Virus record (IMG/VR): IMGVR_UViG_3300031857_000328
Span: 1 to 47,975 of that record
From: a virus
DNA: 47,975 nt
Reading direction: 5' to 3' (one strand)
A program made the position numbers and the translations under genes. Below the pieces are notes generated by a model. That model was not told the DNA's origin. It saw only the letters and a list, made by a program, of their open reading frames with translations, and did no database searches. Positions within the stretch are counted from its first letter, which is position 1. Each line of letters begins with the position of its first letter. Below, one piece after another: positions 26,851 to 41,929 of this stretch.

Positions 26851-27600
26851 ATGAGGATTAGAATCAAAGAGGCACAACAAACGCCACAAGCAATATTCAT
26901 GGCCGGACCAGCTGGTTCCGGTAAATCCTTTATATCTAAATCATTACCACTTTCTAAATTCCAAGTAATAAATGTCGACGACACTTATGAGGAATTGCTG
27001 AAAGCATCAGGAATGGGCATGAAACAAAAGGATTTTGATCCTGAACAGTTGTCACAAGCCGCTAAATTAATGGGCCAAGCACAAAAAACTACTAAGGAAA
27101 AATACGCCAAAGCGCTCGAAAATTTAAACGACATTATTATTGATGGTACAGGTGCGGCATCTCGTCCTTTACTCAAGAAAAAGGCGGAATTAGAGGCTTT
27201 AGGCTATGAAACTATGATGGTAATGATATATGTTTCTCCAATGACATCACTTGAACGTAATGCTAATAGAGATCGTTCATTAATGCCAGGTATTGTTTTA
27301 AGAACATGGAGAGATATTAATCAAAATATTGATATTTACAAACAAGCGTTTGGAAATAATTTTGTTTTAATTAATAACGATTTAAAAGACGCTGATAAGA
27401 GTTTTGATCCTCAAGAAATAAAACGTAGATTTTTTGACACATCTAAAGCCAAAGGTAAACCAAAAACACCTGAAGAAATGGCTAAATCAAAAGCAGATGT
27501 TGAACAACTAAATAAAGATATAAACACACAACTACAGAACATTCCTGAATTTACACCAGTAAATGATGCTGTTAGTAAAATAAAGGCATTTATTAAATGA
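26851..27600 (+). CDS. P-loop kinase, zeta-toxin/polynucleotide-kinase-like
   Basis: 249 residues. The Walker A motif GPAGSGKS is at 19-26, followed by NVDDTYEELL, IIIDGTGAASRP, and a lid region with paired Arg (LERNANRDRS at about 134-143), as in zeta-toxin and AAA_33-type kinases. The family phosphorylates small molecules, nucleotides or nucleic-acid 5' ends; the substrate is unknown. It opens with MRIRIKE-A, giving an I-x-E|A prohead-protease-like site. An element of TATTTATC form precedes the ATG by three bases. Overlaps the fusion enzyme by four bases (ATGA). Confidence 0.75.
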   Translation: MRIRIKEAQQTPQAIFMAGPAGSGKSFISKSLPLSKFQVINVDDTYEELLKASGMGMKQKDFDPEQLSQAAKLMGQAQKTTKEKYAKALENLNDIIIDGTGAASRPLLKKKAELEALGYETMMVMIYVSPMTSLERNANRDRSLMPGIVLRTWRDINQNIDIYKQAFGNNFVLINNDLKDADKSFDPQEIKRRFFDTSKAKGKPKTPEEMAKSKADVEQLNKDINTQLQNIPEFTPVNDAVSKIKAFIK

Positions 27601-29402
27601 TAGATTTAAATACAATACTAAACGAGCTAAACGAAGAGGATACTCAACAAACACCTCCAGCTATCTGTTACTATCCAGGTGGATTTAAACCTCCACATGA
27701 GGGACATTTTGAAGTACTTAAAGATTTAGCTTCACGCCCTTATATTACTAAAGTAATAGTATTAATTGGACATAAAACTCGTGATGGTATAACTAAAGAA
27801 CAAAGTAAACGTATTTGGGATTTATATTTAGCTACATCTCCAATTGCAAAAGCAGTTGTTAAAATAAGTGAAGATGCTTCTCCAATCAAAGATATTTTTA
27901 GTGCTTTTGATAGGGATTTAGAATTAAAAGCATATGTTGCTGGTGCCAAAAATGAAGTAGAAGAACAAGATTATTTTACTCCACTACAAAAAGCATTTAG
28001 TACTAGAGTAATGCCTCTATCAATTGAAGAAAAAGTTGTGACAAACAATAAACGCCTATCAGGAACTCAAGTACGTGAATTAGTAACTAAACTAAAACAA
28101 TCAGTACTTGATTTACGCTCAGTATCAGATAAAAACTCAACTGAATATTCTAAAGCTAGAAATAATTACTTAAACACATATAAAGAATTAGAAGGCTGTT
28201 TCCCAGAAGTAATTGTTCAAAAAGGACAGTTTGATGATATACTTAAAATATTAGGAATACCAGTATTAAATGTAGATCAACTTCAAGAAGGACAAGAAGA
28301 TGGTAATTTAATTATACGTGTACCTTATCATTTAACACCTAAAATTGAGAATTATTTAAATACAATGTTAATACCATTTGAATACTCTCAACAAGCATTT
28401 AGTGGTAAAGAAAGACGTATGTTAATTCCTAATTTAGGAGATTCACCTGAACAAAAAGAAAAAGTACTTAATTATTTAAGTAAACATAATGTACCTGTTA
28501 ATGTTGAAGAAGATTTATTCACTATTAATTGGTGGAAATCAACATTAGAAGAAACATTAACTGAACCACAAGATAAAACAGACAATATTATAGCTGATTT
28601 TATTGATTTCGTTTCTCAGGCTCTTGATTTACAACAAGTACCTAAAATTACTTTTAGTGATGATGAGCAATTAGCTAAAAAAATGCACGCGTTAGGTGCT
28701 TATCAACCTAAAACTGATGAATTATTAGTAGTTAAAGGATCAAGACTAACAGCTGATATTTTACGTACATTAGCTCATGAGTTAGTACATCGTAAACAAG
28801 CCGAAATAGGACCTTTAAGTGCTGAAGATGGTAAAACAGGATCTGAGGCTGAAAATGAAGCTAATGCTGCTGCTGGTGTTTTATTAAGACAATTTGGACA
28901 ATATAGACCAGAAATATTCGAGGAAGATGTTAAAGAAAAAGCTGACTACAAGGTATATTGTGACATGGATGGTGTGTTAGTTGACTTTGAAAAAGGATAT
29001 AAAGAATTAACTGGTGAAGATGCTAGTTATAATACCAACCCAGAAGAATTTTGGGCTCCAATCACTAAAGCAGGAGCAGCATTTTGGATTAAATTACCTT
29101 GGATGCCTGATGGAAAACAATTATGGGATTATATCAAACCATATAATCCATCATTATTATCAGCTCCATCACGTGAGGAATCATCTAAAATAGGTAAATT
29201 TACTTGGGTAAAAAGAAATATGCCTGGTACTAAACTTATCTTACGTTCAGCAGAGCGTAAACAAGAATTTGCAACCCCAAACTCTATCTTAATTGATGAT
29301 AGAGCAGATAATATACAACGTTGGAAAGATGCTGGTGGTATTGGTATTCACCATACATCAGCTTCAGATACAATTCAACAGTTGAAAAAAATAGGTTTAT
29401 GA
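27597..29402 (+). CDS. three-domain fusion: nucleotidyltransferase, HExxH metallopeptidase-like, HAD phosphatase
   Basis: 601 residues. Domain 1 (about 20-165) is a cytidylyltransferase/NMNAT-type nucleotidyltransferase: GGFKPPHEGH at 28-37 (the HxGH motif) and LSGTQVRE at 154-161 (counterpart of ISSTxxR). Domain 2 (about 330-435) holds a zinc-peptidase HELVH at 394-398 with acidic ligand candidates in EAENEANAAAG (about 417-427). Domain 3 (about 450-601) is HAD-like: DMDGVLVDF at 456-464 and ILIDDRADN at 564-572, as in 5'-deoxynucleotidases. The first residues (IDLNTILNE, cut site L-N-E at 8-10) resemble a capsid-targeting leader. Domains are clear, physiological substrates not. Confidence 0.78.
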   Translation: MIDLNTILNELNEEDTQQTPPAICYYPGGFKPPHEGHFEVLKDLASRPYITKVIVLIGHKTRDGITKEQSKRIWDLYLATSPIAKAVVKISEDASPIKDIFSAFDRDLELKAYVAGAKNEVEEQDYFTPLQKAFSTRVMPLSIEEKVVTNNKRLSGTQVRELVTKLKQSVLDLRSVSDKNSTEYSKARNNYLNTYKELEGCFPEVIVQKGQFDDILKILGIPVLNVDQLQEGQEDGNLIIRVPYHLTPKIENYLNTMLIPFEYSQQAFSGKERRMLIPNLGDSPEQKEKVLNYLSKHNVPVNVEEDLFTINWWKSTLEETLTEPQDKTDNIIADFIDFVSQALDLQQVPKITFSDDEQLAKKMHALGAYQPKTDELLVVKGSRLTADILRTLAHELVHRKQAEIGPLSAEDGKTGSEAENEANAAAGVLLRQFGQYRPEIFEEDVKEKADYKVYCDMDGVLVDFEKGYKELTGEDASYNTNPEEFWAPITKAGAAFWIKLPWMPDGKQLWDYIKPYNPSLLSAPSREESSKIGKFTWVKRNMPGTKLILRSAERKQEFATPNSILIDDRADNIQRWKDAGGIGIHHTSASDTIQQLKKIGL

Positions 29403-29974
29403 GTGAAAACAACTTAAAAAAAGAATTCTCTAAACGTGATGTTCAGAGAATGAGAAACATTATCACCGGCAATGCTGGCTCAGCTACTGGTGTTCAAGTA
29501 GGTTATAGTAAACAATCTCAAGATTATCAAGAAGGTGATGTATGGGAGGAAAATGATAAGCAATGGACCATTAAAAATGGCATTAAGCAAACCATTACCA
29601 AACATGATAAACTAAGACAATTAATCACTATGCCTTTAGCTTGCCCTAATTGCGCAAAACCACTTAAATCAGATGATTTAAACAAGAAAATGTGGACAAT
29701 ACATCATATGTGTTTTGATTGTGTTATTGAAATGGAGGCTAAAATTAAAATAGATGGCAAATGGGATGAATATCAATCACAAATGATGAATTCAAATAAA
29801 AATTCTATGGTTGATGATTTTGAACAAGCGTTTGAAGAGTTTATAAATGCTAAAACTGACACATTTGTTACTGAACAAGGTGACATTGAAACATGGAGTG
29901 GTGGTAAGGTTAATGAGGATGAAATAAAACAAGTTAAGGAGTATATTAAGAAACTGCGCGAGACAGAAATATAA
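29399..29974 (+). CDS. zinc-ribbon phage protein
   Basis: 191 residues; the start at 29399 (MSENNLKKEF) overlaps the previous stop as ATGA. An upstream in-frame ATG at 29321 lies deep in the fusion gene and is unlikely. Residues 76-104 contain a treble-clef or ribbon-like metal site: ACPNCAKPL, then HHMCFDCV, four Cys plus His. The rest is charged and helical, with an EEFINAKTDTF segment and a terminal IKKLRETEI helix. Many T4-like marine phages carry similar proteins of unknown role. Could bind nucleic acid. Confidence 0.6.
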   Translation: MSENNLKKEFSKRDVQRMRNIITGNAGSATGVQVGYSKQSQDYQEGDVWEENDKQWTIKNGIKQTITKHDKLRQLITMPLACPNCAKPLKSDDLNKKMWTIHHMCFDCVIEMEAKIKIDGKWDEYQSQMMNSNKNSMVDDFEQAFEEFINAKTDTFVTEQGDIETWSGGKVNEDEIKQVKEYIKKLRETEI

Positions 29975-29977
29975 ATA

Positions 29978-29985
29978 TATTTATT
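29978..29985 (+). promoter_or_regulatory. TATTTATT variant element near 29989
   Basis: TATTTATT three bases before ATG 29989, or 12 before ATG 29998. Immediately upstream (29970-29977) is TATAAATA, the T4 late-promoter core in the forward direction, 11 bases before ATG 29989. Confidence 0.4.
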
Positions 29986-29988
29986 CAC

Positions 29989-30294
29989 ATGGCAGCAATG
30001 GATAATATCTACACAGTAATCATAACAGCTATAACAGTATTAGGTAGCGCTACAGCATTTAGATTCTATGAAAAAAAATCAATGCGTAAAGAACGTGATG
30101 AAGAATTTATTCGCCATGACTGTAAAGATCGTATCTCTAAATTAGAAGCATTGCTTATTGAATCAGCACGTGAAAAAGATGAGTTACGTAAAATGGTTTT
30201 AGAACTAACTAGAGAAGTAGCTTCATTACGCACTAAAGTTGAATTTTTTGAAAAAGGTACCGCGCCTATCAAAGCTAAAACTTCCCGTAAATAA
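29989..30294 (+). CDS. membrane-anchored coiled-coil protein
   Basis: 101 residues. Residues about 6-23 are hydrophobic (TVIITAITVLGSATAFRF), followed by a highly charged coiled coil (KSMRKERDEEFIRH to RTKVEFFEKG) with regular leucine spacing. This topology fits an inner-membrane spanin or a membrane-tethered scaffold, but no partner was identified. An alternative start at 29998 (MDNIYTV) would leave 12 bases after the TATTTATT element instead of three. A Lys-rich tail ends the protein. Confidence 0.55.
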   Translation: MAAMDNIYTVIITAITVLGSATAFRFYEKKSMRKERDEEFIRHDCKDRISKLEALLIESAREKDELRKMVLELTREVASLRTKVEFFEKGTAPIKAKTSRK

Positions 30295-30318
30295 TCGCTT
30301 TATTATTACCCATTAATA

Positions 30319-30326
30319 TATTTATA
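30319..30326 (+). promoter_or_regulatory. TATTTATA element before 30347
   Basis: Exact TATTTATA, 20 bases before the ATG, in a 52-base gap; same flanks as the site at 17762. Confidence 0.55.
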
Positions 30327-30346
30327 TAGGATAAAATCTATATAAA

Positions 30347-30922
30347 ATGCCATATACTCGTAAAGGAAATTGCGTATATAAAGAAACCGGTAAGAAAATG
30401 GGCTGTTCTAAAGACGCCTCTGCCGCAGAAAAATACATGAGCGCGTTATACGCCGCTGAAAAAGGACAACTTAAAGAAGGATTCGAACCAGAAACAATTA
30501 GCCCTAATGAGCCAGAATTAGCTGTGACTATTGAGTTACCTAATCCAACACAAGTAATGGCTAACTTCGTTTCAACATTTTTTGCATCTCGCACACAAGC
30601 ACATATATTCCATTTACAAGTTAAAGGACCAGGAGCATTCGCTGCTCATACAGCATTAAATGCTTATTATGATGGTATTATACCTTTAATTGATGCTTTA
30701 GTTGAGTCATTTCAAGGCCGCTATGGTATTATTACTGGTTACAAATGTGAAGGACAATGGATTGAAAATCCAAATGACGCTGTAAAATATTTTGAAGCAT
30801 TATGTATGTTTGTAGAAAAAAATCGTGGTTCATTACCTCAAGATTCGTATATTCAAAACCAAATTGATGCTTTTGTTGAGTTAATTGAATCAACTAAATA
30901 TAAATTAGTAAACTTACAGTAA
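30347..30922 (+). CDS. ferritin/Dps-like helical-bundle phage protein
   Basis: 191 residues. The N-terminal ~40 residues (PYTRKGNCVYKETGKKMGC) are a short Cys-containing module found at the start of several phage proteins. A likely processing site L-K-E|G sits at 42-45. Residues about 60-190 form a four-helix-like bundle (THIFHLQ-type HIFHLQVKGPGAFAAHTALN, then YYDGIIPLIDALVESFQGRY), as in Dps-related phage proteins; the metal site is not obvious. A role protecting packaged or host DNA is possible. The TATTTATA element lies 20 bases upstream. Confidence 0.55.
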   Translation: MPYTRKGNCVYKETGKKMGCSKDASAAEKYMSALYAAEKGQLKEGFEPETISPNEPELAVTIELPNPTQVMANFVSTFFASRTQAHIFHLQVKGPGAFAAHTALNAYYDGIIPLIDALVESFQGRYGIITGYKCEGQWIENPNDAVKYFEALCMFVEKNRGSLPQDSYIQNQIDAFVELIESTKYKLVNLQ

Positions 30923-31299
30923 TGCGCATTCGTATAGTTAAAGAAGAGGAGGATTTCACTCCAATAGCTGACCCAAAGGAACCAAAACCTGAGGCTAAGC
31001 AATTTCAAATATTAGCTACAATGATCACTAACACTAAAGTTAATGATCAAACTAACATATTATCTGCTATGCGTGCATTGCCAGGTGTTACTATTGTAAA
31101 TTCACAAGCTGCTATTCCTGGTTCAAATTCAGAAGGACAATTACGCTATAAAACAAATGTCGACATTAAGATTGACACTTCAGCTATTGAAGGTGATATT
31201 AAAGCCGGTATTAGAAAAATAGTTGAAGATATTAAGAAAATTGAAGGCGTAGTTGAGTTTAAGATATTACCAAAAGCAAAAGAAACAACTCCATACTAA
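30922..31299 (+). CDS. ferredoxin-fold-like small phage protein
   Basis: 125 residues. It starts with MRIRIVKEEE, one of the repeated Arg/Ile/Lys leaders of this region. The body has a beta-alpha-beta pattern (LSAMRALPGVTIVNSQAAIP, then TNVDIKIDTS and IEGVVEFKILPK) typical of ferredoxin-like or ACT-type folds; similar small proteins occur in T4-like marine phages without known function. Overlaps both neighbours at TAATG. Confidence 0.5.
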   Translation: MRIRIVKEEEDFTPIADPKEPKPEAKQFQILATMITNTKVNDQTNILSAMRALPGVTIVNSQAAIPGSNSEGQLRYKTNVDIKIDTSAIEGDIKAGIRKIVEDIKKIEGVVEFKILPKAKETTPY

Positions 31300-31946
31300 T
31301 GAATAAGGTACAATTAAAGGAGCATATTGAAAAAATCATCAGCTATGTAGGCCAAGAGTATAATCATGGTCCTAAGTTAGTTATGAATGAATCTAAAGAA
31401 CCTGTTTTCATCTCTGAAGGCATGTTTTATCATATTGAAAATAACTTACCATTAAACGAATCAATATATCGCCCTCAGTCCATGATGTTTTTAAAACTAT
31501 TTGTTGAGGCAAGAGAATTATATGAAGCTAAACGTTTAGTATTATGTGAATCAGATAAATATTATTTTGATAATACTGATGTTGGTACATTTGGTGAGTA
31601 TAATGGTATTAAAGTACCACTAGACTTACCCTTGACCGAGGAATTTTTGACAGAAGCATTAGAAGAAGAAAAGAAAACACCCCCAATTGGTAAACCAAAA
31701 CGTGGTGGTTCTAAGAAATTCTATGTATATGTTAGAGATAAAGGTAAAGTAAAAAAAGTATCATTTGGTATGGCAGGTGGTGGCTTAAGAGCCAAACTAA
31801 ACAACCCAGAAGCACGTCGTGCGTTTTCAAAACGCCATGACTGTCCTAATAAAAAGGATAGAACTAAAGCTTCATATTGGAGTTGTCGTTTACCTCGTTA
31901 TGCTAAATTATTAGGATTTAAAACAACATTCTCAGGATATTGGTAA
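31299..31946 (+). CDS. basic phage protein with conserved RHxCxxKxxKxxxYWSCRxPRY C-terminus
   Basis: 215 residues. The N-terminal ~120 residues are helical and acidic, with several (L/I)-x-E|S/G sites (L-K-E, I-S-E|G, L-N-E|S), consistent with processing. The C-terminal ~75 residues are basic (KPKRGGSKKFYVYVRDKGK) and end in FSKRHDCPNKKDRTKASYWS followed by CRLPRYAK, a conserved motif of small virion-associated proteins in marine myoviruses. Lys/Arg-rich character suggests nucleic-acid contact in the head. Function unknown. Confidence 0.6.
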   Translation: MNKVQLKEHIEKIISYVGQEYNHGPKLVMNESKEPVFISEGMFYHIENNLPLNESIYRPQSMMFLKLFVEARELYEAKRLVLCESDKYYFDNTDVGTFGEYNGIKVPLDLPLTEEFLTEALEEEKKTPPIGKPKRGGSKKFYVYVRDKGKVKKVSFGMAGGGLRAKLNNPEARRAFSKRHDCPNKKDRTKASYWSCRLPRYAKLLGFKTTFSGYW

Positions 31947-31972: not shown

Positions 31973-32443
31973 ATGTATCGTATTCAACTCGACCCAGGAC
32001 CTTGGGCACAATATGTAAAAAGAGCTGACAACATTGGTTTATCACTTTATGAGGTGACTAAAAAATATCAAATGGAGTCTAACTTGTATGCTACTCAATT
32101 ATTTGAAGCATTACAAGCGCAACAACAAAGTCTACAGAGTACAGCAGTAGCCGCTGTAGGTTCTGGTGGTGCTAGTGCTCCTCCAGCATCTCCAGTTTCT
32201 TCAAACTGTATTGAATTTGTAAATAATACAACTGATGGAACTTATTCAGAATTCACTATTACAACATCTGGCCCTACTAATTTTACAATAAACTGGGGTG
32301 ACGGTACAACATTTACTGATGTAGTAGACGGCTCATACACTGTTGATTACTCTTATGCAGATTCAGATCAATCATATAATTGTACCTTATGTTTTGATGA
32401 TATAAGTTTAGTAACTGAATTAGATTTCCTAGGAGACGATTAA
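31973..32443 (+). CDS. PKD-like domain protein, possible N-terminal part of a split gene
   Basis: 156 residues. Residues 1-~55 are helical (GPWAQYVKRADNIGLSLYEV), followed by an Ala/Gly/Pro linker (AAVGSGGASAPPASP) and a PKD-like beta domain (about 77-150: FTITTSGPTNFTINWGDGTT, YTVDYSYAD), where WGDG is the family landmark. It ends in VTELDFLGDD, which reads like the beginning of a leucine-rich repeat, and the next gene begins directly with such repeats, so the two may derive from one ancestral gene. Confidence 0.6.
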   Translation: MYRIQLDPGPWAQYVKRADNIGLSLYEVTKKYQMESNLYATQLFEALQAQQQSLQSTAVAAVGSGGASAPPASPVSSNCIEFVNNTTDGTYSEFTITTSGPTNFTINWGDGTTFTDVVDGSYTVDYSYADSDQSYNCTLCFDDISLVTELDFLGDD

Positions 32444-32478
32444 AAATACAAATAATACAATTAAAAATATAAATAATT

Positions 32479-33702
32479 ATGGGAGCAACGTTAACATCAA
32501 TAACAGGCTTACAAAATCTAACAAACCTACAAGAATTTAGAGCAGATTATAATAGTTTTACATCCATTGATTTATCTGGATTACCAAATCTTACTTACAT
32601 AGACATAAGTGATTGTGACATTCCTGGAACATCTACCAGTAGTTTAACATCTATTAACTTAGCAGGATCTACAGCTATTGAAGAATTACGTCTTGATGAT
32701 AGTAATTTCTCAGCTGGTATCCCTAACATGTCAGAGCTTACAAATTTAAATTATCTTGATATAGACGGAAGTAATATAGCAGGAGCTGTAGATATATCAG
32801 CACAATCATTCAATAATCTTACATATGTGGATTTTTCTGCTAATAATATTACGTCAATAGGATTACCTGAAGCATATATTAGCTATCTTAGTCTTAGTGA
32901 CAATGCTCTTACACAAGAAGCTGTAGACGATACATTACAATGGTTAGATGGAAGTGGTGTAGAGGATGGATCAGTATATTTAACTGGTGGTACAAATGCT
33001 GTTCCTTCAAGTGCAGGTTTTGAAGCCACAGCAAGCTTAGTGGATAAAGGATGGACTGTTCAAGTAAACGAACCACCTCCAGGCTATGTAGGAATAGCAG
33101 CTAGCACAGACTTTAATATTGTAGGAGACTTTACTATTGAGATGTTTGTCAATGTGACAGGTAATATAGGTGGTTTCCCACGTCTATATAGTTTTGGTTC
33201 ATATCCTGCCGCTAACGCAATATCAATTGAAGCTGGTGCAACTCAATTATACTTCTGGGGGAATGGCACAGCCCTTATGAATGGTCTAGCTACCTTTACA
33301 TCAGGATCATGGAACCATATCGCAGTGATGGGTTCTGGTTCTAATACTTATCTGTATCTTGATGGTGTTCAAATAGGAAGCAATGCTTATACTGGAAGTA
33401 TATCAAGCCAAGGATTACCATTGACAATTGGATATGGTAATGAAAATCAATCTGAATTTGAAGGATTGATGAGTAACTTTAGATGGAGTAATGCCGCTTT
33501 ATACCCAACAGCATCATTTACAGTACCAACAGCTCCATTAACTAGCTCAGCAGATACAGTATTATTAACATTCCAAGGAAATAATATAACTGATATATTA
33601 CTAGATAATAGTGGTAATAACCATGATGGAACAAATTCTGGAGCAATTTACTCTACAGAAAATCCATTTGCTGGAGTATCAGGATCATTACAAATGGGGT
33701 AA
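32479..33702 (+). CDS. leucine-rich-repeat and LamG-like adhesin protein
   Basis: 407 residues. Residues about 5-150 are leucine-rich repeats of the LTNL--L-adyn-F/I--idlsgl type (LTSITGLQNL, LTNLNYLDIDG, NNLTYVDFSANNI), followed by residues ~200-390, a LamG/concanavalin-like domain (YVGIAASTDFNIVGDFTIEM, SGSWNHIAVMGSGSNTYLYL, EFEGLMSNFRWS). It has no signal peptide or transmembrane segment, so it is probably carried on the virion. LRR-LamG combinations are characteristic of Bacteroidota surface and phage adhesion proteins. Start is 35 bases after the PKD gene. Confidence 0.68.
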   Translation: MGATLTSITGLQNLTNLQEFRADYNSFTSIDLSGLPNLTYIDISDCDIPGTSTSSLTSINLAGSTAIEELRLDDSNFSAGIPNMSELTNLNYLDIDGSNIAGAVDISAQSFNNLTYVDFSANNITSIGLPEAYISYLSLSDNALTQEAVDDTLQWLDGSGVEDGSVYLTGGTNAVPSSAGFEATASLVDKGWTVQVNEPPPGYVGIAASTDFNIVGDFTIEMFVNVTGNIGGFPRLYSFGSYPAANAISIEAGATQLYFWGNGTALMNGLATFTSGSWNHIAVMGSGSNTYLYLDGVQIGSNAYTGSISSQGLPLTIGYGNENQSEFEGLMSNFRWSNAALYPTASFTVPTAPLTSSADTVLLTFQGNNITDILLDNSGNNHDGTNSGAIYSTENPFAGVSGSLQMG

Positions 33703-33718: not shown

Positions 33719-33982
33719 ATGAGTCAACCATATACAGACTTATTAGTTACGAGTGAATATATAATTAGGGAATTTGATGAAAACATTGACCCTATAGAGC
33801 TAATGTGGCATCGAGATGATGAAAATAGGATGGTCGAAGCTATAGAACCAACAAATTGGCTAGTACAACTAGACAACCAGTTACCAATGTCTATGACTCA
33901 ACCAATATTTATACCACGTCATATGTGGCATAGAACTATAAAAGGAACAGGTAAATTAAAGATTAAAATATATAAATCATGA
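33719..33982 (+). CDS. small conserved T4-like phage protein with WHRD/WHR motifs
   Basis: 87 residues. LMWHRDDENRMVEAIEPTNW and FIPRHMWHRTIKGTGKLKIK (residues about 28-48 and 63-84) form the repeated pattern of a small family in T4-like marine phages; the two His-containing turns could make a metal site in a cupin-like half barrel. Nothing is known of its role. Overlaps the next gene by four bases (ATGA). Confidence 0.6.
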   Translation: MSQPYTDLLVTSEYIIREFDENIDPIELMWHRDDENRMVEAIEPTNWLVQLDNQLPMSMTQPIFIPRHMWHRTIKGTGKLKIKIYKS

Positions 33983-34419
33983 AAAAATCTGAATTAAAAC
34001 AATTAATCAGAGAAGCAATCGAAGAAGTAAAACCACAAGTTGAAGAAGAAATAATCAACGAAGGATTTTCTCCTGAAACTGATGAAGTAGGTGAATTTTG
34101 GGTGGTTGAAAAACCATCTACTAGTGCTACTTTAGATGATGTTTGCTTCAAATGCGAAAATGTAATGTACTTTGCTCGTCAAGTGATGGGTGGTTTAAAA
34201 CCAGAAGATATTAAAGGTGTATTTGTTAAAGAAGCTAAAGCTAAGAAATTAGCTGAAAAATTATTAGCAGATCGTGACAAGAAAAAAGACGAAGTAAAAC
34301 AAGCAGCTGAAGCTTACAAGAAAATGAAAGAAGAAACTTTAGCTAAAGTACAAGAGTACATGAAGAATAAAAAAGAAACTAAAAAAGTAGTTGACGAGTT
34401 AAAAGCTGAAACTAAGTAA
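33979..34419 (+). CDS. small internal-protein candidate with capsid-targeting-like leader
   Basis: 146 residues. It starts with the amphipathic helix MKKSELKQLIREAIEEVKPQ, a leader very frequent in marine phages; cut-site candidates are I-R-E|A (10-13) and I-N-E|G (26-29). The following EGFSPET recurs in the protein at 30347 as EGFEPET. The body (about 34-85) has two Cys (VCFKCENVMYF), then a long Lys/Glu coiled coil. Predicted to enter the prohead as a packaged protein. Function otherwise unknown. Confidence 0.55.
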   Translation: MKKSELKQLIREAIEEVKPQVEEEIINEGFSPETDEVGEFWVVEKPSTSATLDDVCFKCENVMYFARQVMGGLKPEDIKGVFVKEAKAKKLAEKLLADRDKKKDEVKQAAEAYKKMKEETLAKVQEYMKNKKETKKVVDELKAETK

Positions 34420-34715
34420 TGAAACGCTCTGATTTAAAAAACATAGTTAAAGAACTAGTTGAAAGAGAAATTGGTCAAAGTAAAACTGATCCTGAAACAG
34501 GTATCCAAACTACTTTAACTAATATAGACCCAGAAACAGATAAGTATTCTTGGGATGTATCATACGAAGTTGACCCTCAATTTTTATACACTAAATTAGA
34601 TCAATTAGTTGATTATTTAAAAAAAGCACCTGATGGTTCTGAATTAGCTCAGTTTAGAGATATTCTTAAAACTTTGAAAAATAAGACTGCTAGAGTAATA
34701 AACAAAAGTAAATAA
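34419..34715 (+). CDS. small internal-protein candidate
   Basis: 98 residues starting with MKRSDLKNIVKELVEREIGQ, another amphipathic leader with an L-V-E site at 13-15. The rest is acidic to neutral (LTNIDPETDKYSWDVSYEVD) and ends Lys-rich. No known domain. Overlaps the genes on both sides at TAATG. Processing by a prohead protease is inferred from the leader. Confidence 0.5.
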   Translation: MKRSDLKNIVKELVEREIGQSKTDPETGIQTTLTNIDPETDKYSWDVSYEVDPQFLYTKLDQLVDYLKKAPDGSELAQFRDILKTLKNKTARVINKSK

Positions 34716-35269
34716 TGAAAATTAGAATCAAAGAAATAGAGCCACTAGATCCACAAGCTACAGATACACTTGATGACTTAAAAGGTCAAATGAGTGCTCT
34801 TTTAGGCGGTATTGAAGATGCTTTAGAAGATAACTCTAAAAACCAAAAAGAAGGTATTGTTACTACAGCTAGTATAGCATTAGCTATGCCAGCTATTTTA
34901 GGTTTAGTAGCTCGTTTTGGTAGAACAGTTACTAGTATTGTTAATAGAACATTAGGTAAAAAACCAACTGATCAAGGAGGTGCTCAAAAATATTTCCAAC
35001 AAATGGGACGTATAGCTGATGAATTACATCATTTATATATGACACCGCTTGAATTAGTTATTAAACGTTTTGTTAAAGATGAAGCTAAAGCTAAAAAAAT
35101 AGCACATTTCTTATTCCACGTTATTGTTGGTATAATGTTATTAGCATCAGGCATTACAGCTGTTAAAGCTATACAATCAAAAGAATTATCACTTGCAACA
35201 CTTGAAACAGCATTAACTGCTATTAAAGGTGGTGAACTTAAATCATACATAACTAAATTATTAGTATAA
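34715..35269 (+). CDS. membrane protein with two hydrophobic segments
   Basis: 184 residues with leader MKIRIKE-I. Hydrophobic segments at about 48-70 (IVTTASIALAMPAILGLVAR) and 130-152 (IAHFLFHVIVGIMLLASGIT) suggest two transmembrane helices with a soluble middle containing a possible helix pair (FQQMGRIADELHHLYMTPLE). Related membrane proteins occur in marine T4-like phages without known function. A holin role is conceivable because no other holin is evident, but the leader is more like those of internal proteins. Confidence 0.5.
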   Translation: MKIRIKEIEPLDPQATDTLDDLKGQMSALLGGIEDALEDNSKNQKEGIVTTASIALAMPAILGLVARFGRTVTSIVNRTLGKKPTDQGGAQKYFQQMGRIADELHHLYMTPLELVIKRFVKDEAKAKKIAHFLFHVIVGIMLLASGITAVKAIQSKELSLATLETALTAIKGGELKSYITKLLV

Positions 35270-35637
35270 TGATTCGTTTAACTGATATATTAATTGAATC
35301 ACTTCTTGAAAAAAAAGAAGATCGTTGCAAACGAATAGCTGATAGACGTTATGACAAACCATCTGCTTATAAATCAGGCGCTATTGTTAGATGTCGTAAA
35401 GGTGATATTTGGAAAGATCTTAAAGAAGATGAATCATTACATAAATGGTTTAAACGTTCTGGTCCTAAAGGTAAAGAAACCGGTTGGGTAGATTGTAATG
35501 CTCCTGATGGAAAAGGTGGATATAAAGCCTGTGGAAGAAAAGAAGGTGAAAAAAGATCTAAATATCCATCGTGTCGACCAACACCTGCTGGATGTAAGAA
35601 AAAAGGTAAAGGTAAAACTTGGGGTAAAACAAAATAA
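35269..35637 (+). CDS. small basic Cys-rich phage protein (YPSCRPTPAGCKKKGKG family)
   Basis: 122 residues, very basic. It begins MIRLTDILIESLLEKKED, a leader with L-I-E|S. The body contains LHKWFKRSGPKGKETGWVDC and ACGRKEGEKRSKYPSCRPTP followed by CKKKGKGKTWGKTK, a conserved module of small virion-associated phage proteins. The spaced Cys residues may bind zinc. Likely enters the head bound to DNA; this is inferred from charge and context. Overlaps the previous stop at ATAATG. Confidence 0.6.
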   Translation: MIRLTDILIESLLEKKEDRCKRIADRRYDKPSAYKSGAIVRCRKGDIWKDLKEDESLHKWFKRSGPKGKETGWVDCNAPDGKGGYKACGRKEGEKRSKYPSCRPTPAGCKKKGKGKTWGKTK

Positions 35638-35645: not shown

Positions 35646-36650
35646 ATGCAAGACAATTTTAACATACATAGTTGGCAGTTAAAAACAGCTATAAATGAAT
35701 TAGAAAAAACAAACGAAGACGAAATTGGTTTATCTGATATCTTAGCTCGTGATTTATTTAAATTACAAGGTAAAATATCTGATGACTTATTTTATAAGTT
35801 AAGAAAATTAGTTAATTCACAAGACCCAGCTGCTTTAGCTAAAGCTAAAGAAATTATAAGTCGTATTAAACCAGAAGATGATCGTATCTATATGGGTGAA
35901 GAAAAAGGACAATGTCCTGAATGTGGATGTAAAATGGAAGCTGCAATGTGTAATGAATGTGGTTATATGGAAGAAGCTACATTCACTGATAAACATGATG
36001 ACAACCCTGAATTAAAAGGTGGTCAAAAAGATTTACCTGATGAAGTACAAGCTAAAATTATAGCTAAAGAAGGTGAAAATAATCCAATTAATATATTAAG
36101 AGATATTTATTATTTCGATAAATTAAATACTCTAGCTGCTAAAGAAGATATAGACCCTAAATACTATTCATACGGTACACTTTGGGCTAAAAAAGGAGAC
36201 ATATTTGATTCTGATTCTGAAGAATATGATATGATTCTTGGTTCTAAAGATTTAGAAAAAGGAGTAGATTATACTGAAGGATCAATAAATGAAAGTGAAG
36301 ATCATGAAGTATCAATGGCTCAAAATAGCCTAAAAGCTATCATTAGCTCAGCTAGTCAACTTATGGCTAAATTAGGCGATAATGAAAGAGACATTCCAGG
36401 TTGGATTCAAGATCATATTGCTAAATCAGAAAACTATATTGAACAAGCAAATCAAAGTTTCCATGAATTAGAACCATATGGTGATTCAGATGAAATGAAT
36501 GAAGCTATGTTCACATCAGCTAATTCTAACAATCCTGAAGGTGATAAATTAGTATTACGTTTCTTACAAGGTATTGCTAAGAAATTTGACTACCCAGTAT
36601 ATCAAGCTGCTTTATTTGTTAAAGATAGAATTAAAAAATTAGGCTACTAA
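35646..36650 (+). CDS. acidic phage protein with zinc ribbon
   Basis: 334 residues, acidic overall. Residues 89-110 form a zinc ribbon (GQCPECGCKMEAAMCNECGY) with paired CPxCGC/CNECG. The middle (160-215) has a beta-alpha segment, and the C-terminal ~60 residues (FLQGIAKKFDYPVYQAALFV) form a helical module repeated in other phage proteins. No catalytic motif visible. It lies in the run of suspected packaged proteins, but its own start lacks an amphipathic leader. Function unknown. Confidence 0.5.
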   Translation: MQDNFNIHSWQLKTAINELEKTNEDEIGLSDILARDLFKLQGKISDDLFYKLRKLVNSQDPAALAKAKEIISRIKPEDDRIYMGEEKGQCPECGCKMEAAMCNECGYMEEATFTDKHDDNPELKGGQKDLPDEVQAKIIAKEGENNPINILRDIYYFDKLNTLAAKEDIDPKYYSYGTLWAKKGDIFDSDSEEYDMILGSKDLEKGVDYTEGSINESEDHEVSMAQNSLKAIISSASQLMAKLGDNERDIPGWIQDHIAKSENYIEQANQSFHELEPYGDSDEMNEAMFTSANSNNPEGDKLVLRFLQGIAKKFDYPVYQAALFVKDRIKKLGY

Positions 36651-36653: not shown

Positions 36654-38213
36654 ATGAAAAAATTTAGAATAATAAAATCACGTCCTATAAAAGAAGAGGA
36701 AGAAGTAATTGATCAACAAGATCAAGATGTTGCTCCACAGCAATCTGAAATTACTTATGAATCTAATCCTTTAGAGTTTATGTTAATGAAATATCCAACA
36801 TTAACTAAAACTTTAACTGATTTATTAACTGAAAATTTTAGAGATTATATTGTTGGTGTTTATATAATGGCACCTAAACCAACTATATTTAAAATTGTTT
36901 TACACAATAATCGCTCATTTCATTTAATATTCATGGGTGATGAAAAATATGAGGCTAAAGTAAGTGGTAAAAAGTATTGGTTATCCAATATAGGTGAATT
37001 TGAAAATGCTGTTATGTCTATAGCTGATTTATTAATGTTAGGTACTCCACCATCAACTCAAGGACCAGAAACAGAAATGGCTTCTAGTTCTGAAGAAGAA
37101 ACATCTACTATCACACCAGAAGAAACACCAGAAGAAGAAGAAGCACCTGAAGAAATAGCTGAAAGTAAGAAAAAATTTAAATTAAACTTACTAGAAAATA
37201 AATTACAGGAAGCTGAAACTGGGGAAGCAGTTTTATTTGAATCTGCTTTAGTATATGCTTGGTATAAACTAAACAAAAAACCAATCCCAGAAGATGCTAT
37301 ACTGCCAGCTGAATTAGAAAAATTAAAATCTAATCCTTCTTTAGTAAAAAGTGCCGCTAACGCTATAACTCAATTAAAATTAACTAGCGGTAAAGAAGCT
37401 AGAGGAACAGGTAGAGCAGGAAGTACAGTATCAGTAACTCCATTTTGGTCTAGTTTTGGTGCTTCAAATACTACTCCAAAAACAGATGTTATATTAGGTG
37501 ATAGAAAAATATCTGTTAAAGCAGGTAACGCTCAATTAATGAGTGGTGGTAAGAATGAATCAATAGCTACATTTTATGCTGCTGCTAAAAAAGTACCTAA
37601 TATTTTAAAAACAAAAGAAGCAAAAGATGTAATTGATACATTTGAAAAATTTGTAGAAGCTGGATACACAAAACAAGGTAGTGTTGATACAAATTTAAAA
37701 GCTGGTAAAGATAAAGTTATTAAAGCTGGAGATGCTGCTCATAAAGAAATGAGAGGTAAATTAGAAGCATTATTTAATAAAAGTCCTGAATTTAAAATAG
37801 CATTTGCTAAAGAAGCAATGTCAGGTCTTGAAAAATTTGGCCCTGGTAGCCCTGCTACAGCAGATTATGTTCTATCAGTTGATAGTAGTTATGGTAATCC
37901 ACAATTACATAAAACTCAAGATGATAAATACGCTGCTAAAATAGCTGATCAAATGAAATTAACAGTTAGATTTAAATCTACATCTGAGAAATTAAAAGGA
38001 GAAAAAACAGGACGTTATCGTTTCTGGTCAGTTGTTTCTTTAATTTCAGATCCATCTAAATTAAAAGAAGGAGTATTAGATAGTATTAAATCTGTAGTTA
38101 ATAAAGTAAAGGACTATGTATCTCAAGGTATAGCATCATTAACAAAATTTATTATTGGTGACAATCCAGAAGATGTAGACATTAGCTTAAATAACAATAT
38201 AGACTTTAGTTAA
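36654..38213 (+). CDS. large accessory protein with possible nuclease-like core
   Basis: 519 residues. The start MKKFRIIKSRPIKEEEE has an I-K-E site at 12-14; an acidic linker (about 140-170) is followed by I-A-E|S (168-171) and a second folded part. In this part, TPKTDVILGDRKISVKAG (about 274-290) with QLMSGGKNES is a short Asp...Lys pattern resembling restriction-endonuclease-like folds (Asp278, Lys289), but the expected acidic partner is absent, so this is tentative. It closes the transcription unit: a terminator hairpin follows within 60 bases. Confidence 0.45.
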   Translation: MKKFRIIKSRPIKEEEEVIDQQDQDVAPQQSEITYESNPLEFMLMKYPTLTKTLTDLLTENFRDYIVGVYIMAPKPTIFKIVLHNNRSFHLIFMGDEKYEAKVSGKKYWLSNIGEFENAVMSIADLLMLGTPPSTQGPETEMASSSEEETSTITPEETPEEEEAPEEIAESKKKFKLNLLENKLQEAETGEAVLFESALVYAWYKLNKKPIPEDAILPAELEKLKSNPSLVKSAANAITQLKLTSGKEARGTGRAGSTVSVTPFWSSFGASNTTPKTDVILGDRKISVKAGNAQLMSGGKNESIATFYAAAKKVPNILKTKEAKDVIDTFEKFVEAGYTKQGSVDTNLKAGKDKVIKAGDAAHKEMRGKLEALFNKSPEFKIAFAKEAMSGLEKFGPGSPATADYVLSVDSSYGNPQLHKTQDDKYAAKIADQMKLTVRFKSTSEKLKGEKTGRYRFWSVVSLISDPSKLKEGVLDSIKSVVNKVKDYVSQGIASLTKFIIGDNPEDVDISLNNNIDFS

Positions 38214-38263
38214 TAACATATAGACAGATTCATAGCCTGTCGACTTAAAAAAATTATGCAGCT

Positions 38264-38298: not shown

Positions 38299-38328
38299 AC
38301 CTAAAAAATGAATTTATATTTAGTTATT

Positions 38329-38823
38329 ATGAATATATTTTACATCCATCCTGATCCAAAAATAGCTGCTAAGCAGTTAGTAGATGATCATATCCGCAAG
38401 ATGCAAATTGAATCTGCTCAAATGTTATGTACAACATTTCATCATTATGGAATAGAAGCTCCATATAAGAAAGCTCATTATAACCACCCATCAACAAAAT
38501 GGGTTCGTGAGTCAATGAATCATGTTAAATGGTTACTTGAACATGGTTTAGAGATATGTGATGAGTTTATTATTAGATATGGTAAGTCACATGCAACAGA
38601 AAAAGTTTTGCTTTGGGTAAAAGATAACTTATCTTTATTAGAAGGTAAAATTCCAAATAGTGAATTTATACCCCCACCACAATGTATGCCTGATGAATAT
38701 AAAAAAGACGATACATTGAACGCATATAGAGAATTTTATATTAAAGACAAAATTGGAATTAAAAAATTAAATTATAACAAACTAAATAACACCCCAGAAT
38801 GGATAAAAGAATCGTTATTGTAG
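38329..38823 (+). CDS. pyrimidine-dimer DNA glycosylase-like protein
   Basis: 164 residues from the internal ATG 38329 (MNIFYIHPDPK); the earlier ATG at 38308 adds seven residues not seen in relatives. The pattern MNIFYxxxDPKxxAxxxxDxHxxKMxxExAQ is that of the T4 endonuclease V-related (Pyr_excise) family, with NHPSTKWVRESMNHVKWLLE at about 52-71, DEFIIRYGKSHAT at 78-90 and PPQCMPDEYK. These enzymes repair UV dimers, useful for a phage in lit waters. It directly follows the terminator at 38264 and overlaps the flavoprotein gene. Confidence 0.72.
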   Translation: MNIFYIHPDPKIAAKQLVDDHIRKMQIESAQMLCTTFHHYGIEAPYKKAHYNHPSTKWVRESMNHVKWLLEHGLEICDEFIIRYGKSHATEKVLLWVKDNLSLLEGKIPNSEFIPPPQCMPDEYKKDDTLNAYREFYIKDKIGIKKLNYNKLNNTPEWIKESLL

Positions 38824-40136
38824 GAGCAGGAGTAGCAGGGATAAACGCCGCTACTAAACTAGTAGACAATGGATATCCTGGTGAATTAATCACCATTATA
38901 GACAAAGGTAATGACCCAATAAATCGCTTACCTGAAGAGGTAATGACAGGAATGTTAGGTGCTGGTGGTTGGAGTGATGGTAAATTAACTTATCATACTT
39001 CAATTGGTGGTCAATTGTCTAAGTATTGCGGTGAAGAAAAAGCAATGGAATTGATGAAGCAAGTAGTAGATAATTTTACTCGTTTTCACCCTAAACCAGA
39101 AGAAATATTCATGTCTGACCCACAGGAAGAACCTGAATTTATTAAGCCGTATTTTGGTTTAAGAATGTTTCCTGTATGGCATATTGGATCTAATTTCTTA
39201 CATGAAATTGCTAAAACATGGTATCAATATTTGTTAGATAAAGGTGTTAATTTTAGCTGGAATGTTGAAGTGACAGAAATTGATTTTAAAAAGAATTGGG
39301 TATCATATAAAAATCTTACTAATACAAAAGAAAATATAGGACCATTTGACATTACATACACCTCAGGAGGATTATTATACGATGAATTAATATTCGCAGT
39401 AGGTAAATCAGGTATTGATTTTGCACAAAAATTAGCTGATGATTATAAATTACCTAATGAACCTAAATCAGTACAAATTGGTGTTCGATTTGAAGCACCA
39501 CAAAAATATTTTCAAAAACTAATTGATGTATCGTACGACTTTAAGTTATATCAAAAGTTTGATAATGTATCTCTACGTTCGTTCTGTACTAACAACAACG
39601 CAGCTTATGTAGCAGTAGAAGAAACATACGGTGATTTAAGTTATAATGGTCATGCTAAAAAAGGAGAAGAATTTAGAAATAATATGACCAATTTTGGTAT
39701 ATTAATGGAAATTAAAGGTATTGAAGATCCATTTGCTTGGAGTAGAGATGTAGTTAATAAATTACAAATAGATGGAAAGGGATTATACTATAGTCCATCT
39801 AGAACTGTGAGTAAAACATCTGAAGGTACAGATGTGACAGCACATCAAATTAAATTTTTAGATGGATTTAAAGGAGCAATGGGTGAATATGCTGATTATG
39901 TTTTAAACTTTATTGATGATATGAATAAGGTATTTGAATTTGGTAATGATTGGGGTATGTACATTCCTGAAGTAAAATACTTATCACCTGAACCATTAGT
40001 TAACTACAATGATTTGTCATTAACAATTTATCCAAATGTTCACTTTGTAGGAGATGCTTTAAGTGCTCGTGGTATTACAGTATCAGGTGCACACGGCATT
40101 TATGTAGCTGAAAGCTTACTTAACCCAAGTAAATAA
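38799..40136 (+). CDS. FAD-dependent oxidoreductase
   Basis: 445 residues. A dinucleotide-binding Rossmann motif is at the start: RIVIVGAGVAGINAATKL with GAGVAG at 9-14 and acidic Asp35 (TIIDKGND). LGAGGWSDGKLTYH at about 53-66 resembles the GGAGTFSDGKL motif of uncharacterised FAD-dependent dehydrogenases, and a terminal motif VHFVGDALSARGITVSGAHG (about 412-431) is the second FAD-contact region. The substrate is unknown. Such a flavoprotein is unusual in a phage and may be an auxiliary metabolic gene. Start overlaps the glycosylase gene by 25 bases. Confidence 0.78.
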   Translation: MDKRIVIVGAGVAGINAATKLVDNGYPGELITIIDKGNDPINRLPEEVMTGMLGAGGWSDGKLTYHTSIGGQLSKYCGEEKAMELMKQVVDNFTRFHPKPEEIFMSDPQEEPEFIKPYFGLRMFPVWHIGSNFLHEIAKTWYQYLLDKGVNFSWNVEVTEIDFKKNWVSYKNLTNTKENIGPFDITYTSGGLLYDELIFAVGKSGIDFAQKLADDYKLPNEPKSVQIGVRFEAPQKYFQKLIDVSYDFKLYQKFDNVSLRSFCTNNNAAYVAVEETYGDLSYNGHAKKGEEFRNNMTNFGILMEIKGIEDPFAWSRDVVNKLQIDGKGLYYSPSRTVSKTSEGTDVTAHQIKFLDGFKGAMGEYADYVLNFIDDMNKVFEFGNDWGMYIPEVKYLSPEPLVNYNDLSLTIYPNVHFVGDALSARGITVSGAHGIYVAESLLNPSK

Positions 40137-40162
40137 ATTATATTTAATTAAATAAAAATAAC

Positions 40163-40393
40163 ATGGCTAAAGACGCAGGAGTTAAAAAATTAAAATCACC
40201 AGATGGTAGAATCGTATTTTATCTAGATGGTAAACTTCATAACTGGGAAGAACCAGCAGTAATATATCCTGATGGTAAAAAAGAATATTGGTTATTCGGT
40301 ATTCAATACACAAAAGATGAATTTCTTGATCGTAAACGTGATTCAAATGGTGTACCACCAGCTAAGGATCCGAAATATGATACACGTCTCTAA
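40163..40393 (+). CDS. small phage protein with DGKLH-type repeats
   Basis: 76 residues. Contains MORN-like beta repeats, SPDGRIVFYLDGKLHNWEEP and AVIYPDGKKEYWLFGIQYTK, found in many phage and bacterial proteins of the DGKLHREDGPA type. No catalytic residues. Role unknown; perhaps a small binding protein. Confidence 0.6.
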   Translation: MAKDAGVKKLKSPDGRIVFYLDGKLHNWEEPAVIYPDGKKEYWLFGIQYTKDEFLDRKRDSNGVPPAKDPKYDTRL

Positions 40394-40397
40394 TTAA

Positions 40398-40405
40398 TAT
40401 TTATA
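40398..40405 (+). promoter_or_regulatory. TATTTATA element before 40419
   Basis: Exact TATTTATA, 13 bases before the ATG of the NadR-type NTPase, followed by ATATCAAA flanks like those at 1749. Confidence 0.5.
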
Positions 40406-40418
40406 TCAAATACACAGT

Positions 40419-40940
40419 ATGAAAATAGGATTATGTGGTACAATGTCAGTTGGTAAAACAACGTTAGTTAAAGCATTGGCTAAAACTGCTGAATTTAAAA
40501 ATTATAAAACTGCTACTGAACGTAGTAAGTATTTACGTGACTTAGGTATTCCATTAAATACTGATTCGACTATTAATGGTCAGTTTGTATTTTTAGCTGA
40601 ACGCTCTAGTGAACTATTACATGAAAATATATTAACAGATAGAACAATATGGGATGTATGTTCATTTACAATGTTAGCTAAATCTATTGGAACACATGAC
40701 AAATCTCAGTTTGTGAATGCAGCAATGACATTAAGAGAACAATATGATATTGTATTCTATATTGAACCAGTTGGTGTAGAAATGGAAGATAATGGTGTAA
40801 GAGAAACAAATCTTGAATATAGAGCTGACATTAATCAAGAAATATTGCGTTTATTATCATTATTTCCACCTAAAAAATTAGTGATATTACATGGTTCAAC
40901 TAAAGATCGTGTGAAAACTGTATTAGACGCTTTAAAATAA
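40419..40940 (+). CDS. NadR/AAA_28-type P-loop NTPase or kinase
   Basis: 173 residues. Walker A is GTMSVGKTTL at 7-16, followed by the NGQFVFLAERSSEL region (about 47-60), the LTDRTIWDVCSF block (71-82, acidic-basic pair typical of this family) and a final arginine-rich lid. AAA_28 members include the ribosylnicotinamide kinase domain of NadR and thymidylate-like kinases. It might feed NAD salvage together with the nucleotidyltransferase domain at 27597. The TATTTATA element lies 13 bases before the ATG. Confidence 0.7.
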   Translation: MKIGLCGTMSVGKTTLVKALAKTAEFKNYKTATERSKYLRDLGIPLNTDSTINGQFVFLAERSSELLHENILTDRTIWDVCSFTMLAKSIGTHDKSQFVNAAMTLREQYDIVFYIEPVGVEMEDNGVRETNLEYRADINQEILRLLSLFPPKKLVILHGSTKDRVKTVLDALK

Positions 40941-40942
40941 AA

Positions 40943-40950
40943 TATTTATT
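40943..40950 (+). promoter_or_regulatory. TATTTATT variant element before 40970
   Basis: TATTTATT, 19 bases before the ATG of the internal head protein candidate. Confidence 0.4.
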
Positions 40951-40969
40951 AACATAACAACAACAAATC

Positions 40970-41929
40970 ATGGCAGATTTCGATTACAAAAAGTTTATAA
41001 CTGAAGCAAAACTTAACATTAAAGTTCCTGTAAAGGAAATGGCACGTATTGCTAAAGAAAAATACAAACTCAATACAAGTTTTCCACAAATTAAGGATAG
41101 AATTAAAAATCCAACTGGCTATAAATTAGATCGTAAACAACAAGTAATCAACTACTTCATTAAGAAAGCAAGTGATGAAAATATTGATCCAATGGAAGTT
41201 GAATTACTAAAGAGTGACATTGAAAAAAATGCTGCTCCTGGTGTTAACTGGTCTTTTACTCCTGATATTCGTAATCAATTATTACAAGCAACTACTGCTA
41301 AATCTGCTTCAGCACCTGAAGAAGAAGAAGGTGGATTTTTTGGTGATTATGGTGATGCTGAGGATATGTTTATAGGTAAATCAAAACTTAAAGGTAGAAA
41401 AGCTATGGACAAAGATGATGAAGAAGGTCCATCAGAGAAAGATTTAGCTAAACTTAAATTACCAAAATCTGCTCCTTTAAATTCTAAAGTAGGAGAATTC
41501 TTTAATAATCACTCAGCTTTAATTGATAAGATTATTAAGAAATATGCTACATCAACTATGAAAACAGGTCGTGTAGTTAAAGAAGCTGAAGACGGAGGAA
41601 TGTCAAGTGCTGATTTTAAATCTGCTAATATTAAATCAAAAGAAGCAGCTAAAGAAGCACTACCAGAATTAATTCAACAGCTTGTAGATGTACTTAAAGA
41701 TTTAAAATCAGAAGATCAAGTAGCATATGTTAAAGTATTAAATGATCTTGACAAATATAAGTTTACACCTACAAATACTAAGAATGTTCTTAAACAACTT
41801 CTTAGAGCATTAGATGAACCAACAATGCCTACAATAGCAGGTAAAAAGAAGAAGAGTGATGATGATGAATTAAAAGCTTTAGGAATTGATGATGAACCAA
41901 TTAACTTAGATGGAGAAGAAGAAATTTAA
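40970..41929 (+). CDS. internal head protein candidate with T4 IP-like leader
   Basis: 319 residues. The start MADFDYKKFITEAKLNIKVP closely resembles the T4 internal-protein leader MKTYQEFIAEA, and the I-T-E|A site (10-13) matches the gp21 protease consensus. The body is highly charged, Lys/Glu/Asp-rich and helical (LDRKQQVINYFIKKA, KSKEAAKEALPELIQQLVDV, acidic C-terminus), consistent with a scaffold or DNA-binding internal protein. Position just before terminase and portal supports a head role. Confidence 0.6.
   Translation: MADFDYKKFITEAKLNIKVPVKEMARIAKEKYKLNTSFPQIKDRIKNPTGYKLDRKQQVINYFIKKASDENIDPMEVELLKSDIEKNAAPGVNWSFTPDIRNQLLQATTAKSASAPEEEEGGFFGDYGDAEDMFIGKSKLKGRKAMDKDDEEGPSEKDLAKLKLPKSAPLNSKVGEFFNNHSALIDKIIKKYATSTMKTGRVVKEAEDGGMSSADFKSANIKSKEAAKEALPELIQQLVDVLKDLKSEDQVAYVKVLNDLDKYKFTPTNTKNVLKQLLRALDEPTMPTIAGKKKKSDDDELKALGIDDEPINLDGEEEI

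Follow-up and report, generated by a model that had tools for sequence, protein, structure and literature searches.

Leader-bearing genes of the window

The DNA analysed here, called the window throughout, is the full 47,975-nucleotide stretch of IMG/VR virus record IMGVR_UViG_3300031857_000328 (positions 1 to 47,975), an incomplete 48 kb record of a T4-like phage. Between 26.8 and 42 kb about 12 of its genes begin with short leaders of at least five kinds, which end in [LI]xE (leucine or isoleucine, any residue, glutamate) or a near match to it. The prohead protease gp21 of phage T4 cuts after L/I-x-E, and the capsid targeting sequence of that phage is formed by the first ten residues of the internal protein IPIII (PMC9026906). 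We consider it highly probable that the leaders of the window are T4-style capsid-targeting propeptides that serve a large and modular cargo. The nearest isolates, as judged by the portal protein, are the Flavobacterium phage immuto (NC_055915; 60% identity) and then the Microcystis phage Mel-JY01 (51%).

Four leader families are referred to below: type A, MKKSxLKxIIKEE..xLxE; type B, FDLKKFLxExKL; type C, RMQxLAG(I/L)(I/L)xE; and type D, M(I)xLxxLLxE. Genes are named by their first position, and arrows mark predicted cleavage points. The leaders and related regions of the window are:

26851..26871, plus strand: leader MRIRIKE↓ of a zeta-toxin/polynucleotide-kinase-like kinase (gene 26851-27600)
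26872..27600, plus strand: body of the kinase, predicted cargo, with 1 internal [LI]xE vs 2.0 expected
27597..27626, plus strand: type D leader MIDLNTILNE↓ of a 601-residue nucleotidyltransferase-like/HELVH/HAD fusion (gene 27597-29402), with a second site, LNE, at residue 13
30347..30478, plus strand: 44-residue module ending LKE↓G ahead of a Dps-like/DUF5856 domain (gene 30347-30922), absent from most homologs
30922..30945, plus strand: leader MRIRIVKE (gene 30922-31299), IVKE being an inexact L/I-x-E
31299..31667, plus strand: N-terminal region of gene 31299-31946, with a start resembling a leader and, as far as residue 123, 8 [LI]xE
33979..34062, plus strand: type A leader MKKSELKQLIRE↓A (gene 33979-34419), with a second site, INE↓G, at residue 28
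34419..34463, plus strand: type A leader MKRSDLKNIVKELVE (gene 34419-34715); homologs have MKRSELKNIVKELVE (L156) and MKRSELKKIVEDA (L015)
34715..34735, plus strand: leader MKIRIKE↓ (gene 34715-35269), kept in L156 and L015; 0 internal [LI]xE vs 1.9 expected
35269..35310, plus strand: type D leader MIRLTDILIE↓SLLE (gene 35269-35637, DUF5872-like); the immuto homolog begins MGKVNKAYIENIIKEILSE
35646..35699, plus strand: type B-like leader MQDNFNIHSWQLKTAINE (gene 35646-36650); 1 internal [LI]xE vs 4.9 expected
36654..36695, plus strand: leader MKKFRIIKSRPIKE (gene 36654-38213); leaders of homologs end RPLKE or RSLKE
40970..41005, plus strand: type B leader MADFDYKKFITE↓A (gene 40970-41929)

The initial annotation of this DNA had reported at least nine such genes. 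All the open reading frames (ORFs) and leaders that it named are present at their coordinates, and the phenomenon is larger than it said, since 35646 and 36654 join the set and immuto replicates it (below); gene 30347, which it had mentioned, carries the 44-residue module in place of a short leader. The ending in L/I-x-E that it described holds for most leaders, the exceptions being 30922 (MRIRIVKEE) and 34419 (MKRSDLKNIVKEL), with I-V-K-E at the first position. The stretch EGF(E/S)PET is indeed common to 30347 and 33979, close homologs retaining just EGFxP or EAFxP. Among the homologs of 30922, the close one in L374 begins MRIRIVEAAS and more distant ones begin MKLSEIKKAIKEE and MKLLELRQLIQEE. 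A start akin to that of 35646 occurs in immuto (MENNFDIHKWQAKFLKES), adjoining gp21, and the leader of 40970 belongs to a widespread family whose relatives begin MADNFDLRKFITEAKL.

Counted over 26.85-41 kb and the two genes that lie beyond 46 kb, an early [LI]xE (residues 5-16) is found in 10 of 23 genes, as against none of the 32 other genes of the window (Fisher 4e-5), the background rate in internal windows of the same proteins being 11.6%. Because this region was picked on account of its leaders, immuto provides an independent and fairer replicate: around its syntenic region 18 of 30 genes have an early [LI]xE, vs 24 of 182 elsewhere (1e-7). BLAST comparisons within immuto reveal proteins that differ except for homology over their first 23-34 residues; for instance, gp076 and gp092 both carry MENFDLKKFLVENKLT, and two other proteins carry MKKQILSEQF(R/K)RMQ(K/F)LAGIITES. 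This single genome holds about 17 leader-cargo candidates.

Modularity of the leaders

Degenerate DNA patterns were built from the type A, B and C leaders of immuto and the window, those of types B and C without a start-codon anchor, and searched in viral contigs, where gene calls are crude and the counts are lower bounds. Type A was recovered on at least 74 non-homologous body clusters (from at least 90 bodies of usable length), type B on at least 70 (from at least 111 bodies) and type C on at least 76 (from at least 100). Among the matches listed, 113 of 123 for type B and 101 of 111 for type C lie no more than 15 residues from the start of the ORF. A control pattern of type A with the order of codons reversed had no matches in viral contigs, and 257 gigabases of bacterial and archaeal genome contigs gave just 8 type A stretches, mostly in contigs of metagenome-assembled genomes. 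Among the ORFs of the fetched loci, which had themselves been fetched by the patterns for types A to C, types A, B, C and D number 143, 150, 142 and 113 respectively, vs at most 0.2 in shuffles. At least 18 body clusters show two or three leader types on the same body, one family having A, B and D. In phage records, tblastn with the type B and C leaders retrieved immuto only, and with the type A leader it found no match, probably due to the low-complexity filter; a literature search for the leader motif strings found no paper. Modularity and, as far as tested, a restriction to T4-like phages are apparent from the sequences.

Copies of type B and C leaders also occur inside longer ORFs, type B in L234, L235, L260, L270, L298 and L318 and type C in L334, L344, L348, L377, L390 and L393; 12 of 15 such internal copies have an [LI]xE just upstream, an arrangement reminiscent of polyproteins.

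The kinase encoded by 26851 offers a test case. It belongs by sequence and fold to the zeta toxin/polynucleotide kinase superfamily, with a Walker A kinase fold: it matches Pfam Zeta_toxin (PF06414, 1e-10), a PDB profile search points to zeta toxin (2.4e-6), and Foldseek places zeta toxin 3q8x first (E 1.2e-7), followed by polynucleotide kinases. Its homologs, 34-86% identical, begin with MRIRIKE or with at least four other leaders, namely MIKLFDLLKE (MI.L..LLKE), MNDFDFKKYLAEGRLLKE, MKTFLQIQE or MKLSQLILE, and the glutamate at the junction (Glu7 of the window kinase) is invariant across 20 aligned homologs. In the AlphaFold2 model residues 1-8 have a predicted local distance difference test score below 50, and nearly all of the body scores 80 or more. 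The leader lies outside the fold, since leaders are swapped, some homologs are without one and residues 1-8 are unfolded in the model. The initial annotation had also recognised an Arg/Ile/Lys kind of leader, which three genes of the window do have; beyond about 10 close homologs of the kinase, MRIRIKE starts only 3 of 5,250 ORFs (0.7 expected by shuffling), and we rejected it as a general leader type that extends past the close clade.

Depletion of internal [LI]xE sites

Bodies held in the prohead with an active L/I-x-E protease must survive it and would be expected to avoid internal sites, and depletion of these sites is the strongest test for such a location. Redundancy was removed, expectations were obtained by shuffling the residues of each protein, and each leader was excluded together with the twelve residues that follow it, so that the leader sites cannot drive the depletion. 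Bodies behind leaders contain [LI]xE at 0.64 of expectation and other proteins of the same loci at 1.12, a ratio of 0.57 (99% confidence interval 0.46-0.69), and each leader type is depleted separately (0.63-0.80 of expectation). The same ratio for control motifs is 1.04 for [LI]xD, 1.04 for [LI]xK, 1.08 for [LI]xQ, 1.08 for [LI]xS, 1.00 for Ex[LI], 0.95 for [LI]xxxE and 1.01 for KxE, with slightly high values for [LI]xN (1.17) and AxE (1.28). As a yardstick from T4, IPII and IPIII have 0 internal sites, the degraded gp22 has 14 vs 5.0 expected, and Alt is neutral.

These values bear directly on the alternative that the leader proteins are components of the prohead core or scaffold, like T4 gp22, gp67 and gp68, which are cut up and lost at maturation. 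Leader-like proteins do occupy the gp67/gp68 position in immuto (gp072, MKKSQIVKAVQEVLEE), many of the cargo bodies are small and acidic (median isoelectric point 5.2), and 31299 and 36654 bear gp22-like clusters of [LI]xE. Following its leader, 31299 has 7 sites vs 2.2 expected and 0 in the conserved C-terminal domain; its match to phrog_7595 covers residues 122-197 only, and its AlphaFold2 model was too weak for a structure search (predicted template modelling score 0.41). The 8 internal sites of 36654 are clustered, four of them within residues 170-196, which suggests a cleaved linker or a core-type protein. These two proteins resemble core proteins or long propeptides more than they do injected effectors. 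As a class, however, the bodies show the opposite of the excess in degraded gp22, and several of them are recognisable enzymes; we regard the core or scaffold explanation as improbable.

The junction and the prohead protease

The head module of the phage is anchored by two genes near the end of the window:

42695..44284, plus strand: large terminase (phrog_2, 4.7e-47)
44315..46201, plus strand: T4 gp20-like portal (phrog_213, 2.6e-60)

In relatives the portal is followed by the gp21 protease, a gp22-like scaffold and a gp23-like capsid protein. Gene order in immuto is the same as in the window, with primase and exonuclease, a block of mostly uncharacterised genes, terminase and portal, beyond which come the prohead protease, a scaffold-like protein and the major capsid protein. 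The window stops short of the position of the protease gene. The initial annotation had held that a lack of a prohead protease downstream would speak against packaging; relatives answer this point, as a gp21-type protease lies in immuto a few genes past the portal, just downstream of the leader region, and at the matching place in L011 and L009, which share 91-92% identity with the window in the portal. A Pfam S77 search of the window's own record gave no match, but its controls gave no match anywhere either, and our own 15-sequence gp21 alignment was used in its place. With this alignment gp21 was detected in 34 of 55 leader contigs of at least 40 kb and in all 16 of at least 90 kb, whereas control contigs fetched by an unrelated 16-mer have it in 5 of 18 and 4 of 7, respectively. 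This co-occurrence is supportive rather than decisive, because the control set is small and many long contigs belong to T4-like phages.

The junctions themselves resemble known gp21 sites. Among the matches listed, 46 of 95 type A proteins have a second [LI]xE that the search pattern did not force, with its glutamate at residue 20, and the next residue is in most cases A, G, N, E, Y, S or T; the type C site is followed chiefly by S, G and N. The capsid protein of the clade has QL(I/V)xE↓(A/S/T/Q/N) in 32 of 34 sequences, placed like the T4 site LTE↓A, and the clade's gp21 has a conserved N-terminal site of similar context, in which Glu18 is invariant.

Short modular tags can have other targeting roles, and the leaders might direct proteins to a replication compartment, a membrane, a chaperone or a degradation adaptor. 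In favour of such a role, type D has a raised hydrophobic moment (0.43 vs 0.32 shuffled); the moment of type B is below that of shuffled sequences, and the amphipathic label given in the initial annotation is not general. A tag of this kind would leave unexplained the [LI]xE junction and the specific loss of internal [LI]xE, the presence of gp21 in all 16 longest contigs, and the likeness among the N-termini of the capsid, scaffold and protease proteins, so that we think it very unlikely. That the shared N-termini are functionless relics of duplicated genes or of recombination at a conserved stretch of DNA is hardly credible: recombination must be the route by which leaders are shuffled among genes, but leaders of four unrelated families take one another's place on the same bodies with the junction glutamate unchanged, and neutral remnants would not reduce internal [LI]xE.

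Predicted cargo

The cargo predicted in the window comprises the zeta-toxin/polynucleotide-kinase-like kinase, the nucleotidyltransferase-HAD fusion, the Dps-like DUF5856 protein, the DUF5872-like protein and several proteins of no recognised kind. The HAD part of the fusion matches the deoxyribonucleotidase family phrog_2643 (3e-28), and its nucleotidyltransferase part is assigned from the motif GGFKPPHEGH alone; between these parts lies a zincin-like HELVH motif, and the immuto counterparts are separate genes, the NadR-annotated gp088 and the HAD gene gp087. The protein encoded by 30347 matches DUF5856 (5e-16) and, weakly, Dps (0.009), and that of 35269 matches DUF5872 (5.5e-6). Most leader bodies elsewhere match no Pfam family. 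One body with a type C leader (L391:4266-4826) matches Pfam Acb1, an antagonist of the cyclic oligonucleotide-based anti-phage signalling system (CBASS), with 29.1 bits at a cut-off of 27. The same protein resembles Acb1/2H-phosphodiesterases in having both HxT-type motifs (EPHCTLLYG ... HPHMTIGY). A PADLOC scan returned two doubtful matches only. That the cargo might be basic as a class was rejected on its median isoelectric point.

Other features of the window

Baseplate genes, gp25-like and gp6-like, lie near 8-10 kb. The gene at 7821-8285, which belongs to this cluster and adjoins gp25, begins MKADTFVKLLRKVVREEVQAVVREEL, resembling type A leaders, and is matched by immuto gp114 (MKLDLLKKLIKEAVKEAV) and in L398 (MDTKVFKKLIKEAVKEAI); this start could be either a leader or a baseplate helix. 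At 47089-47973, and at the gp68 position in relatives, proteins located between portal and protease share the clade-wide motif EMSxTGTGASVTPGTGxGVATKYAFGKK, which comes after short leaders. Two genes at 31973-33702, amid the leader genes, have leucine-rich-repeat-like and lectin-like stretches. A 445-residue protein without a leader (38799-40136) has the dinucleotide-binding motif GAGVAGINAATKL and recurs in 106 ORFs of the fetched loci. Three adjacent genes at 19569-22467 have a Pro/Ser/Thr repeat in common.

A probable capsid-targeting system with modular cargo

Leader interchange, the fixed [LI]xE junction, co-occurrence with gp21 and the loss of internal [LI]xE, all of them read from sequence, support the capsid-targeting interpretation of the initial annotation. 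We infer a course of core binding, cleavage, packaging and injection, in which the leaders would bind the scaffold core during prohead assembly and bring otherwise unrelated proteins into the head. A gp21-type serine protease would then cut after [LI]xE and take off the leader, and the mature body would remain within the DNA-filled head and leave it with the DNA when the phage infects a cell. Bodies and leaders are shuffled in a plug-and-socket fashion, with at least four leader families substituting for one another on homologous bodies.

Several points weigh against this interpretation. The leader search patterns themselves contain [LI]xE, so that only unforced tests count, and we accordingly place weight on the unforced second site, the kinase junction, the gene counts in immuto and the depletion in bodies. 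That depletion is clade-wide: the window's own 12 proteins lean in the same direction (0.89 vs 1.25 for its other genes) but are too few to carry it alone, with 31299 and 36654 running opposite to the class, and the control motif [LI]xxE, at 0.83, is slightly depleted too. Among the kinase homologs, two of about 78-80% identity are without any leader. Among the 55 leader contigs, 21 are without gp21; 13 of these carry the clade's gp6 and 2 its terminase, markers by which they look like genome fragments, and 8 have neither. As families, the leaders show no detectable sequence homology to T4 internal proteins, and the literature searched yielded no virion proteome of this phage group.

The few swappable leaders, found on dozens of unrelated proteins, suggest that this T4-like aquatic phage and many of its relatives fill their heads with diverse proteins, which could enter the host with the DNA. 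There is, in our estimate, a little better than an even chance that a plug-in system of this kind operates in a whole group of aquatic T4-like phages. In it, interchangeable leaders would make any gene cargo, and each virion would deliver a changing first-strike set of kinases, nucleotide- or nicotinamide adenine dinucleotide-related enzymes and counter-defence proteins before phage gene expression, and fused proteins whose internal leaders lie between cut sites may be polyproteins that come apart in the head. If the capsid-targeting interpretation is true, a leader read from sequence would predict which of the uncharacterised proteins of abundant aquatic phages travel in the virion, and would point to a reservoir of proteins likely to act in host takeover and counter-defence, such as the Acb1 match behind a type C leader. 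The handful of T4 internal proteins would likewise become a large comparative system in which scaffold recognition and the specificity of prohead proteases could be studied.

Comparison with known head protein systems

Many head proteins of phiKZ, SPN3US and 201phi2-1 are processed after glutamate by a relative of gp21 and ejected into the cell (PMC5694885, PMC9026906). The motif in phiKZ-type phages is S/A-x-E and the propeptides mostly exceed 100 residues, whereas here the motif is L/I-x-E and the leaders have about 7-20 residues; by these sequence features the leader proteins do not appear to be phiKZ-type ejection proteins. The closer likeness is to IPI, IPII, IPIII and Alt of T4 (PMC9026906, PMC5694885), with which they have in common a short N-terminal propeptide ending in L/I-x-E and a gp21-type protease. 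The order of head genes, 20-x-x-21-22-23, is alike as well, and mature IPII and IPIII, as seen here from their sequences, are free of the internal sites in which the bodies behind leaders are depleted. Certain shell and scaffold proteins of T4, which differ in role from the predicted cargo, also have comparable starts: gp24 (MAKINELLRE↓S) resembles the type D leaders (MI.L..LLKE↓), and gp22 (MLKEQLIAE↓A) resembles the N-terminus of the clade's scaffold. No IP or Alt family was found among the Pfam and PHROG matches, and the bodies are not members of the IPI, IPII, IPIII or Alt families; by analogy, the leader proteins would work like IP and Alt proteins without belonging to them. In T4 such proteins amount to a handful, and IPII and IPIII have one leader in common, whereas the phages described here have well over a hundred unrelated bodies, enzymes among them, behind leaders of at least four families that replace one another.

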